DNA from: Acaryochloris sp. CCMEE 5410
GTDB taxonomy: Bacteria; Cyanobacteriota; Cyanobacteriia; Thermosynechococcales; Thermosynechococcaceae
Assembly: GCF_000238775.2 (NCBI RefSeq)
Contig: NZ_AFEJ02000005.1
Coordinates: 186,001-250,000, forward strand
DNA length: 64,000 bases
Direction of reading: 5' to 3'
Below the pieces are notes generated by a model. The model ran no database searches and was not told where the DNA came from. It was given only the letters and a program-made list of their open reading frames with translations. Position numbers and translations under genes: made by a program. Below are positions 24,236-28,260 of this stretch, piece by piece (within the stretch, counting starts at the first letter, position 1; the number at the start of each line of letters is the position of its first letter).

Positions 24236-26590
24236 ATGGCAGAGCGAAAAATGTCCGGCAGTCAAAGCTTCAAAACCTCAGAGAGAGTAACTGAGCTAAA
24301 TACCTCCTCAACCCAAATTCCGAAAATGGGCGGTGGGATGCCCCTCGTCAGGTATTGGGTTGATAAGATGGCATCCCCCAAGGGTGTTCAAATTTGGAAA
24401 AAACTGATGCACAAGAGTGCATGTCTATCTTGTGCCTGGGGCACAGGTGGGCAAAAAGGCGCTTTCATGAACGAGCTTGAGGAGCCCTTACAACGATGTG
24501 TGAAAAGCTTGGAGGCCATCGCCTCGGAACTCCAACCGGGGGTGAAACCCCACTTCTTTGAAGAATACCCTCTATACCATCTGCAGACACTCACCTCAAT
24601 GGAGTGTGACCGCTTGGGTCGGCTGAGTTTTCCAGTGATTTATCGAGCCGGAAAGTCACACTTTGAACCTATCTCATGGGATGAGATTTATCAGATCGCT
24701 GAGACAGCCTTTAGACAACCACCGCATCGGGTTGCGTCCTATAGCTCTGGTCGCTCCTCTAATGAAGCTGCCTATCTGTTGCAATTAATGATCCGAGCAT
24801 TAGGGTCAAATAACCTCGCGGACTGCTCTGACTTATGCCATGCCCCTTCATCCGTCAGCCTAAGCACTGTCTTTGGGACAGGTACCTCCCTGGTGAGTTT
24901 GGAGAGTTTGCAGCAAGCTGATGGCATTGTTTTAGTGGGGTCTAATGCTCCTGCAAACCATCCCCGGTTAATGAATGAGTTGATCAAGCTAAATGAGCGC
25001 GGGGGGACCGTGATTGTAATCAATCCCCTACGAGAAGTGGGTTTAATGAAATTTGGCTCTCCCGCCTTTCCGCTATCATCTCTCGTCCAAGGGTCAAAGA
25101 TTTCCTCCTTATTCCTACAGCCCATTCCTGGTAGTGATTTAGCGCTATTCATGGGCATTCAGAAAGTACTTCTAGAGCGAGAATGGATTCAATTCGACTT
25201 TCTCCAGTCTCATACAGATAATTGGCAAGAAGTTGTTGAGCGAGTCAAGGCAACGGATTGGGCTACCCTGACCAACATCTGTGGCATTTCCAAAGAAGAA
25301 ATGGAAACAGCTACTGAGATGATCCATCAGTGTGATCGCGTCGTCTTTGCCTGGGCTATGGGCGTCACCCAACATACCAACAGTGTTGATACCATTTTCA
25401 GTATTGCCAACACCGCTTTGATGACGGGGAATGTGGGCAAGTTAGGGGCTGGATTGATGCCCATTCGTGGTCATTCCAATGTCCAGGGGTTTGGGTCGAT
25501 GGGTGTGACCGTTCGTTTGAAAACGGAAATTCGGGAAGCCTTAGAGAAACTATTGGAGCGTTCTCTCAAACGAGAACCCGGCTATGATGCCCGCGCTCTG
25601 ATTGAAGCTGCAGCAGTAGGCCAAGTGGATACCCTGCTGTGTTTAGGTGGAAATCTATATGCCGCGAACCCTGATTTAGTTCAAGCCAAACGGGCCTTGA
25701 GCCAAATTGATACCATTATCTATTTGGCCACTAAGCCCAATCTGGGTCATTTTCACGGTCTTGCCGCCAAGAATACCCTAATTATTCCGGTCTATGCCCG
25801 ATTTGAGAATCCTCACAAAACCACCACCGAATCAGGAAATAACTTCGTCAGACTCAACGATGAAGGTAGGACACATCTAAAGAATGCTGACCTCACTTCA
25901 GAAGTCGAATTTTTAACAGAGCTGGCTCATCGGTTGCATGGCAGCTCTCCCGTGGATTGGCGAAGGCTACAAGAGACCCGCTATGTTCGGCAACTGATCG
26001 CCCAAACCATTCCCGGATACGAAAAAATAGGTGAGATTGATCAGACCCAAGAAGAATTCACCATTTCAGGACGTATTTTCCTAGAACCCAAATTTCCCAC
26101 TCGAACTGGCAAGGCTCAAATGCAGGTAACGCCTTTACCAACCTTGTCACTACCAACCAGGCAAGAGTTTGGAATAGCACATAACACACCATCGATTGTT
26201 GTGGCCTTGATGACTGGACGTAGCTATTCTCAACACAATACGGTGGTCTACAAAGAGGGTGATCGATACAGAGGCGTCCCGCATCGTTACTGTATTTTAA
26301 TGAATCTCTTAGATGTGCAGCAACGGGGTTGGGTAGAACATCAACGAGTTAACGTGCGCGGAGATGCGGGCCAGCTAAACAATATTGAAATTATCATCGG
26401 TGATGTTCGGGAAGGGGCAGCATTGATGTTTTATCCTGAAGCCAACCTCCTTATGAAAGCAAGTATTGAGCCACGCTCGGGTACGCCTGCTTATAAAAGA
26501 GTACCAGTTGTAGTTTTTTCTGAAATGAGTTCCGGTTATTCCGATGATCCCCTAGCATCACAGGAGCACTCTGATGGATCTTCTGATTGA
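24236..26590 (+). CDS. FdhF/YdeP-type molybdopterin oxidoreductase
   Basis: 784 residues of the formate dehydrogenase-like, YdeP subgroup of molybdopterin enzymes. Early residues carry KSACLSCAWGTGGQKGAF, then SYSSGRSSNEAAYLLQL, DLCHAPSSVSL, VLVGSNAPANHPRLM, GNVGKLGAGLMPIRGHSNVQGFG and a C-terminal MoPterin-binding domain (MTGRSYSQHNTVVYKEG). The enzyme binds a bis-MGD cofactor and transfers electrons; the true substrate of YdeP-type enzymes is not known to me. It is a single chain without hydrogenase or membrane partners here. Confidence 0.9.
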   Translation: MAERKMSGSQSFKTSERVTELNTSSTQIPKMGGGMPLVRYWVDKMASPKGVQIWKKLMHKSACLSCAWGTGGQKGAFMNELEEPLQRCVKSLEAIASELQPGVKPHFFEEYPLYHLQTLTSMECDRLGRLSFPVIYRAGKSHFEPISWDEIYQIAETAFRQPPHRVASYSSGRSSNEAAYLLQLMIRALGSNNLADCSDLCHAPSSVSLSTVFGTGTSLVSLESLQQADGIVLVGSNAPANHPRLMNELIKLNERGGTVIVINPLREVGLMKFGSPAFPLSSLVQGSKISSLFLQPIPGSDLALFMGIQKVLLEREWIQFDFLQSHTDNWQEVVERVKATDWATLTNICGISKEEMETATEMIHQCDRVVFAWAMGVTQHTNSVDTIFSIANTALMTGNVGKLGAGLMPIRGHSNVQGFGSMGVTVRLKTEIREALEKLLERSLKREPGYDARALIEAAAVGQVDTLLCLGGNLYAANPDLVQAKRALSQIDTIIYLATKPNLGHFHGLAAKNTLIIPVYARFENPHKTTTESGNNFVRLNDEGRTHLKNADLTSEVEFLTELAHRLHGSSPVDWRRLQETRYVRQLIAQTIPGYEKIGEIDQTQEEFTISGRIFLEPKFPTRTGKAQMQVTPLPTLSLPTRQEFGIAHNTPSIVVALMTGRSYSQHNTVVYKEGDRYRGVPHRYCILMNLLDVQQRGWVEHQRVNVRGDAGQLNNIEIIIGDVREGAALMFYPEANLLMKASIEPRSGTPAYKRVPVVVFSEMSSGYSDDPLASQEHSDGSSD

Positions 26591-26601
26591 TATCTAGACG
26601 T

Positions 26602-27042
26602 ATGAAAAAAATTACAGAATTTCTTGAACCCCTCCAGCAAGTGCTGGCTAATCCCGTAATCGCCAGTATCTTGGAGGTCGTTCTAGGTGTCATTGTCATT
26701 GCAATAGTTTTCCGCATCGCCAGTGCTTCATTACCGCGTTATGTTCGAGACTCAGATCGGCGCTATCGGATTCGTAAATCATTCAATTTCATCAGCTATA
26801 TTTTGATGTTATTGTTTGCCGCGAGTGTGCTGAGTGATAGCCTAGGCCAACTCACGGTAATCTTAGGGGTCACGGGTGCGGGGATTGCCTTTGCTCTCCA
26901 AGAAGTAATTGCGAGTCTTGTGGGTTGGGCAGCGATTTCATTGGGCCAATTCTATAAGCCAGGGGACCGGGTTCAGCTTGGCGGTATCGTCGGTGACGTG
27001 ATTGACATCAGCATTCTACGAACGACGCTAATGGAATGCGGA
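26602..27042 (+). pseudogene. MscS-family mechanosensitive channel, truncated by an IS6 remnant
   Basis: Starts MKKITEFLEPLQQ at 26602. The pore helix GVTGAGIAFALQEVIASLVG and beta-domain start FYKPGDRVQLGGIVGDV are intact, as is SILRTTLM. After MECG the frame enters IS6-family sequence and stops at 27081. The C-terminal cytoplasmic vestibule is missing and is not found downstream within the window. Confidence 0.8.
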
Positions 27043-27534
27043 GTCTGGTTCTCCTTCAGGGATACGTTCTTCTTCCTTTAACCGCTCAACAGCAGGGGGA
27101 TACGCTGGATTTTTATCCACATTGATCACCCGAGGTTCATGGGTATGAACCGCATTGAGTGCTTTGGCCAGAAAGCGCTTTGCAGCCTTTGCATCCCGCT
27201 TTGCTGTGAGTAAAAAGTCGAGCGTGTAGCCATCAGAATCAACCGCTCAATTAAGGTATCGCCACTTTTTGCGGATTTTGATGTAAAATTCATCGACTCT
27301 CCAGGAGCCATTGGTAGGCTTGAGATGTCTGCGACAGCACTTGTCCAGCTCAGGGGAATATTTGAGAACCCACCGATTGATGCTGCTGTGATCAACCTCT
27401 AATCCTCGCTCAAACATCATCTCTTCTAAATCTCGATAGCTGAGGGGAAAACGGCAATACAAGCGGACATTAAGCAGGATGATCTCAGATTGGGATTGGT
27501 ATTGACGCTATTTAAATTGGTCAGCAGTTTTCAT
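27043..27534 (-). pseudogene. IS6-family transposase remnant
   Basis: ATG at 27534; MKTADQFK is followed by an in-frame TAG where the family has tryptophan, then LYCRFPLSYRDLEEMMFERG and VDHSSINRWVLKYSPEL with WRVDEFYIKI. A TGA then replaces arginine before AVDSDGYTLDFLLTA. The C-terminus is lost at the MscS junction, near EERIPEGEPDS. Two nonsense codons and a truncation mean it is inactive. No inverted repeats were found. Confidence 0.88.
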
Positions 27535-27799
27535 CGATAGGAGAGAAAAGAAGTACAGCCTACTAGATTACGATTGGTTCTCAGCTCAGACTCTATTTTT
27601 GCGACACAACTGCTTGATGAGTGTCTTAATGCGCTTTCGTAGTGCTATATCGCAATATCCTTTGTTTTCGAATAAAGAAGTGAGGTGTTCTCACCAAACT
27701 TCCAAAAAGTGAAAAAGAAAAAGTGAATAGGTCAATCATTAAACACTTTTCTTGAGAACTTAGTTTTACTTGAAACGTAAATTAACTATCCTGCTTAAG
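27535..27799. other. AT-rich intergenic flank
   Basis: No gene. It links the IS6 remnant to the structured element at 27800. Nothing else was recognised. Confidence 0.4.
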
Positions 27800-28029
27800 C
27801 CTCCGGTTTAACCGGAGGACTCGTAAGGTTTAACCTTTACCGCGGTCATAGCCTCATCCAAAAATTTGGGTGTTGCAAACCCAACAAGCTTTAGCCTTAC
27901 AGTACGACTTCAGTGTGACAGCAGCGTGTTATGGAGATGTGCTGCCGTCAATATCAAAAGTGAGAGTTTATGACCAGTGATTAAAATCCCCTTTAAGGGG
28001 TTCTTCCAACCCTCCGGTTTTACCGGAGG
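27800..28029 (+). ncRNA. Stand-alone HEARO/omega-RNA-like structured element
   Basis: A 230-nt non-coding element bounded by two 19-nt palindromes, CCTCCGGTTTAACCGGAGG at 27800-27818 and CCTCCGGTTTTACCGGAGG at 28011-28029. Between them are nested stems: GTAAGG (27823-27828) with CCTTAC (27895-27900); TTGGGT (27866-27871) with ACCCAA (27879-27884); GACAGCAGC (27917-27925) with GCTGCCGTC (27941-27949, one mismatch); and CCCCTT/AAGGGG (27988-28000). The design, a guide-like scaffold inside IS200/IS605-superfamily-type hairpin ends, recalls the HEARO/omega RNA that accompanies IscB. No IscB or TnpB gene is adjacent. Family assignment is from memory of the architecture and must be tested by covariance search. 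Confidence 0.5.
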
Positions 28030-28260
28030 TGTTTGACTATCCACTTTTTCAAGTAAAGAATATTTTTCTGAATAATCATTTACTTATACCTCCTCATAAA
28101 GTTCTCACAATATTTCCACACTATTAAGTAGCAAGTCAAAGAAGTTCGAGCATGAAGGCTCTTCACAGATTCCCTCAAGCTTAGAGGACTAATAAAACAT
28201 ACAAAACTGTATTCGCTAAATATCTGCTATCTCTATACATCAGATAAAGGAGCAAGGATT

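Follow-up and report, generated by a model that had tools for sequence, protein, structure and literature searches.

Analysis of the window (the whole 64-kb stretch that was analysed, G000:C5:186001-250000 of an 8.09-Mb Acaryochloris genome) showed a 251-bp element that is very probably a palindrome-associated transposable element (PATE), which derives from a tnpA-only IS200-type element, has no gene of its own and would move as single-stranded DNA through a Y1 TnpA acting in trans. The element has defined boundaries, an exact empty site, a TAAC target, a multicopy family, ends in common with tnpA-bearing relatives, and guides complementary to its cleavage sites.

Two 19-nt palindromes in direct orientation, with the consensus CCTCCGGTTTWACCGGAGG and a spacing of 211 nt, were found near both termini of the element, and terminal inverted repeats were absent. 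A total of 0.03 chance matches was expected for the palindrome (up to 3 mismatches, 64 kb), and it was found at these two places only; since the motif is palindromic, each of both sites also matched on the opposite strand. The near-identical palindromes and the lack of a nuclease gene between them had been given in the preliminary description, and both were confirmed, with the longest ORF in the element measuring 44 aa, which is too short for a transposase. The coordinates of that description (27800-28029) run from hairpin to hairpin, while the mobile unit extends from 27787 to 28037. The features of the element, all on the forward strand, were as follows:

27783..27786, +, left cleavage site and target TAAC, part of the flank, intact in the empty site and constant at 13 G001 left junctions
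27787..28037, +, whole element, 251 bp, delimited by the exact empty site at G001:C227 and the ends of homologous copies
27787..27846, +, left end, with homology to the left end plus leader of IS200-type elements that carry tnpA
27796..27799, +, left guide TAAG, the complement of TAAC under the pairing scheme of IS608
27800..27818, +, left terminal hairpin CCTCCGGTTTAACCGGAGG, with an 8-bp stem and a 3-nt loop
27847..27986, +, non-coding interior, of lower identity than the ends, with no long ORF and no covariation support
27987..28037, +, right end, carrying internal hairpin CCCCTTTAAGGGG; its homologues, also right ends, lie immediately after tnpA in G001:C67, G001:C153 and C59
28007..28010, +, right guide, CAAC in the window copy (CAAG in other clear copies)
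28011..28029, +, right terminal hairpin CCTCCGGTTTTACCGGAGG
28034..28037, +, right cleavage site TGAC, the final four bases of the element, constant in 8 distinct G001 right junctions and followed by T

For the empty site, 300 bp from each side of 27787-28037 were joined and used as the query, and a continuous counterpart of the joined flanks was present at G001:C227:2736-3328 (593 bp, 96% identity). At this locus, AAATTAAC continues directly into TATCTACTTTTTC, and TAAC is therefore the target sequence, with no target duplication. The right joint of the window element carried a one-base ambiguity (T). The window copy occupies a TAAC|T site with psbU about 220 bp downstream, and the same psbU (PsbU by Pfam, 99% identical over 131 aa) was located downstream of the G001 empty site. 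The insertion site (27764-27786 and 28038-28051) also resembled a short recurring sequence, AAATTAACTGTCCACTTTTTCGAGTAAAGGTCA, and sequences like it recurred in G001:C76-C78, G002:C28 and G004:C267; such a site may be the terminus of a different insertion sequence. Elsewhere in the window, a broken IS6-family transposase remnant (27028-27507, minus strand, NCBIfam NF033587 in two frames) came directly after a truncated MscS-type channel gene (26587-27081).

The same genome contained one further, degenerate copy of the element (G000:C2:525500, 72% identical). Full copies with 86-89% identity were found in G002, G004 and G001 of the same genus, where the element-bearing genomes include Acaryochloris bins, and a sequence-model search revealed another full, diverged copy at G001:C204:5801. 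At contig breaks in G001, 13 different left ends and 8 different right ends were present; the contigs (k99 assembly) end within most G001 copies and therefore do not show their interiors. The flanks in G001 varied by copy, with TAAC preceding all 13 left ends, and all 8 right ends read GTTTGAC, then T. The family is thus multicopy, and its presence at unrelated sites suggests mobility. No match was obtained in 386 cyanobacterial genomes (two candidates scored per genome) except in the genome of the window, and the element had no match in plasmids or in phages. The bare palindrome had four matches in viral contigs, none of which (0/4) carried the flanking end sequences. Within the genomes searched, no genus other than Acaryochloris was found to carry the family. 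A near-perfect palindrome of nearly 50 bp, ACTATTCTTCTTAAGCCTCCGGTCAAACCGGAGGCTTAAGAAGAATAGT, was present beside a TAAC at G000:C14:11458-11511 (L003, L004), and it corresponds to two left-end tips of the element family placed face to face.

Comparison with transposase-bearing elements showed that the left 60 nt and right 50 nt of the element match the ends of tnpA-only IS200-type elements of sister Acaryochloris. The left end was present in G001:C314, G001:C301 and G002:C230, and in the last of these it is followed by a short leader AAAGTCTCCTTCGATGAAATTCAAAGGAGGCAAAATG and then by tnpA. The 3' end of tnpA in G001:C67 leads into CCCCTTTCAGGGG and into the CCTCCGGTTTTACCGGAGG right end, and this right end was also present in G001:C153 and C59. 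The window left end demonstrated an alignment score of 73 with G001:C314 and the right end a score of 78 with G001:C153 (null 24 for each), and 0/60 shuffles were as good for either end. The left stem reads CCTCCGG.. in the window and CCTGCGC.. in the relative, and it is palindromic in both. No intact, complete tnpA-bearing partner with exactly matching ends was recovered.

The genome of the window also encoded an intact 143-aa TnpA of the IS200/IS605 family at L031 (132 bits against a cut-off of 55), with hairpins CCCCGG and CCTCCGG and the same left-end and right-end architecture as the window element. This TnpA was 51% identical over 91 aa to the TnpA of G002:C230, compared over the N-terminal part of the latter. 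The guide and target of L031 and of the window element were common to their left ends and different at their right ends. Four loci in the genome (G000:C1:2174924, G000:C2:1129123-1130628, G000:C2:288369 and G000:C1:42918) belonged to a second family of IS200-type tnpA, whose hairpins are CCCCGG/CCTCCGG; one copy each was intact, split by an insertion, stop codon-bearing and truncated.

The guide rule was applied as three canonical pairs (C1-G2, C2-G1, and C4-G4), and this exact assignment comes from structural work on IS608. The guides AAAG and GAAT at the hairpin feet of IS608 pair with the cleavage sites TTAC and TCAA (PMC5934647, PMC6006769), and the three pairs fit both of these published combinations. 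Guide TAAG predicts TA.C and guide CAAG predicts TG.C, and the left and right sites observed were TAAC and TGAC, respectively. The right guide CAAA of a tnpA-bearing relative predicts TG.T, with TGAT observed, while the TAAG guides at both ends of L031 predict TA.C, with TAAC observed. From one element to the next, a change in the guide is thus matched by a change in the cleavage site. The family consensus showed 3/3 predicted pairs at both ends, and the window copy showed 3/3 at the left and 2/3 at the right. Departures that break one of the three pairs were TTAC or TCAC at four left ends and TAAC at one right end. As the right guide of the window copy is CAAC and not CAAG, weakened right-end cleavage is predicted, and this copy may be stuck, with its mobility reduced through the changed guide. 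The right flanks started with T at the inspected junctions, which is similar to the +1 base preferences of IS608 (C) and ISDra2 (G) (PMC5934647).

The RNA fold of 27760-28060 was better than that of shuffles (z -5.6), in agreement with the several nested stems described earlier; however, most of the excess came from the terminal hairpins, and the interior alone gave z -1.9 as RNA and -0.15 as DNA. Against the G002 and G004 copies, both ends were 95-98% identical and the interior 83-84%, while against the G001a copy the left end was 93%, the interior 81% and the right end 90% identical. A conserved RNA fold was unsupported in two alignments, with covariation terms of +0.2 and +1.09 kcal/mol, and a relation of the 140-nt interior to tnpA was looked for and none was found. 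This pattern fits filler between selected or homogenised ends. It is unlikely that the interior, which is kept in several species, is a functional passenger, for instance a small RNA or a segment that regulates neighbours such as psbU.

The preliminary description had assigned the segment to the HEARO/omega-RNA family, as a stand-alone copy that an IscB encoded at another locus could mobilise in trans; that such an IscB uses it as its omega RNA was considered as part of the same reading. The segment is structured and non-coding, and the genome does carry two iscB genes with HEARO RNAs, but these lie on another contig and their RNAs are unrelated to the element. Rfam at gathering thresholds showed no family in the window or in the copies L002, L005, L006 and L007, and a permissive scan of 27600-28250 (E up to 10) gave chance-level matches only, none of them HEARO. 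The same model detected both true HEAROs beside the iscB genes (L041 and L042) at 137.2 and 129.8 bits, and these two were the only ones in a genome-wide search. As the positive controls worked, the absent match refutes membership in HEARO (RF02033). Similarity of the element to both HEARO RNAs of its own genome was within the shuffled range, covariation support was lacking as noted above, and a stand-alone HEARO is extremely improbable. The supposed likeness to an IscB/TnpB-type scaffold with terminal hairpins survives as hairpins of IS200/IS605-type ends, but not as an RNA scaffold, and although mobilisation in trans is probable, the likely mover is a Y1 TnpA and not IscB. A HEARO match is absent, and other copies of the element exist, one of them, degenerate, in the same genome. 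The HEARO-bearing region itself (G000:C3:300301-335788) contained two intact iscB genes, each with a HEARO RNA directly upstream, and two more, weaker iscB-model matches were found between L041 and L042 on the same contig.

TnpB omega RNAs overlap the right end of their element, and a relic of a tnpB element would have a right end that is an omega RNA (reRNA) and ends of IS200/IS605 type, as found here. In the closest relatives with the same right end, however, tnpA and not tnpB comes directly before it (G001:C67 and G003:C59), and the tnpB loci in its own genome showed no convincing resemblance to the element (within or near the shuffled range), which leaves such a relic very improbable. A hairpin with a 5' tetranucleotide guide is a design common to REP-type repeats and IS200/IS605 elements (PMC6006769), and the cousin TnpA at L031 matched the model of REP-associated tyrosine transposases (RAYT) weakly, below the cut-off. 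A REP/REPIN-type repeat moved by a RAYT is still hardly credible, with hairpins in direct orientation and not as an inverted pair, guides TAAG/CAAG against GTAG/GTGG feet, and distinct left and right ends common to IS200-type elements, whose TnpA scored above cut-off on the IS200/IS605 model. There is likewise almost no likelihood that the segment is a non-mobile structured RNA or regulatory segment conserved by the host; the folding of the whole segment and its conservation across species would suit this, but the flanks differ at each copy, the empty site is exact, and the interior folds near chance without covariation.

The hairpins are better supported as DNA ends recognised by TnpA than as an RNA scaffold. 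When the element becomes single-stranded, for example in replication, both terminal hairpins would fold, and a Y1 (HUH) TnpA supplied in trans would bind them. The guides TAAG and CAAG would then pair with TAAC and TGAC and position the cuts, and the excised single-stranded circle would insert 3' of TAAC in a single-stranded target, without target duplication. That TnpA itself carries out the movement is what we infer from these features.

Elements of this kind are already known, and the present family is an additional, genus-level case. PATEs were defined in Haloquadratum walsbyi (PMC3119063), and a PATE-like element has been described in Halanaerobium hydrogeniformans (PMC7290912). The element resembles these in its near-terminal palindromes of similar sequence without terminal inverted repeats, in the absence of target duplication, in a size that leaves no room for a transposase, and in its IS200/IS605-related ends (PMC3119063, PMC7290912). 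Unlike those PATEs, the Acaryochloris family is bacterial, namely cyanobacterial, its guides and targets differ (PMC3119063, PMC7290912), and its ends derive from a tnpA-only IS200-type element, whereas the ends of known PATEs derive from tnpB-bearing IS605 types. The subterminal hairpins and the 5' tetranucleotide guides pairing with cleavage sites are as in IS608 and other IS200/IS605 elements (PMC5934647, PMC6006769), and IS608 likewise inserts 3' of a short target that precedes a favoured base, but neither tnpA nor tnpB is found inside, and the target is TAAC|T instead of TTAC|C. HEARO RNA (RF02033) is similarly non-coding, structured and tied to IS200/IS605-like mobile elements, but the element gave no covariance match. 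The analysis corrects a tempting reading, as hairpins that flank a folded non-coding stretch as direct repeats find a better explanation in the TnpA-recognised ends of a gene-less IS200-type element than in the scaffold of a guide RNA. A further result is a small Acaryochloris family with a natural empty site and a defined TAAC|T target, in whose tnpA-bearing relatives the right guide and site change jointly (CAAG/TGAC against CAAA/TGAT), in line with the prediction from IS608 pairing.
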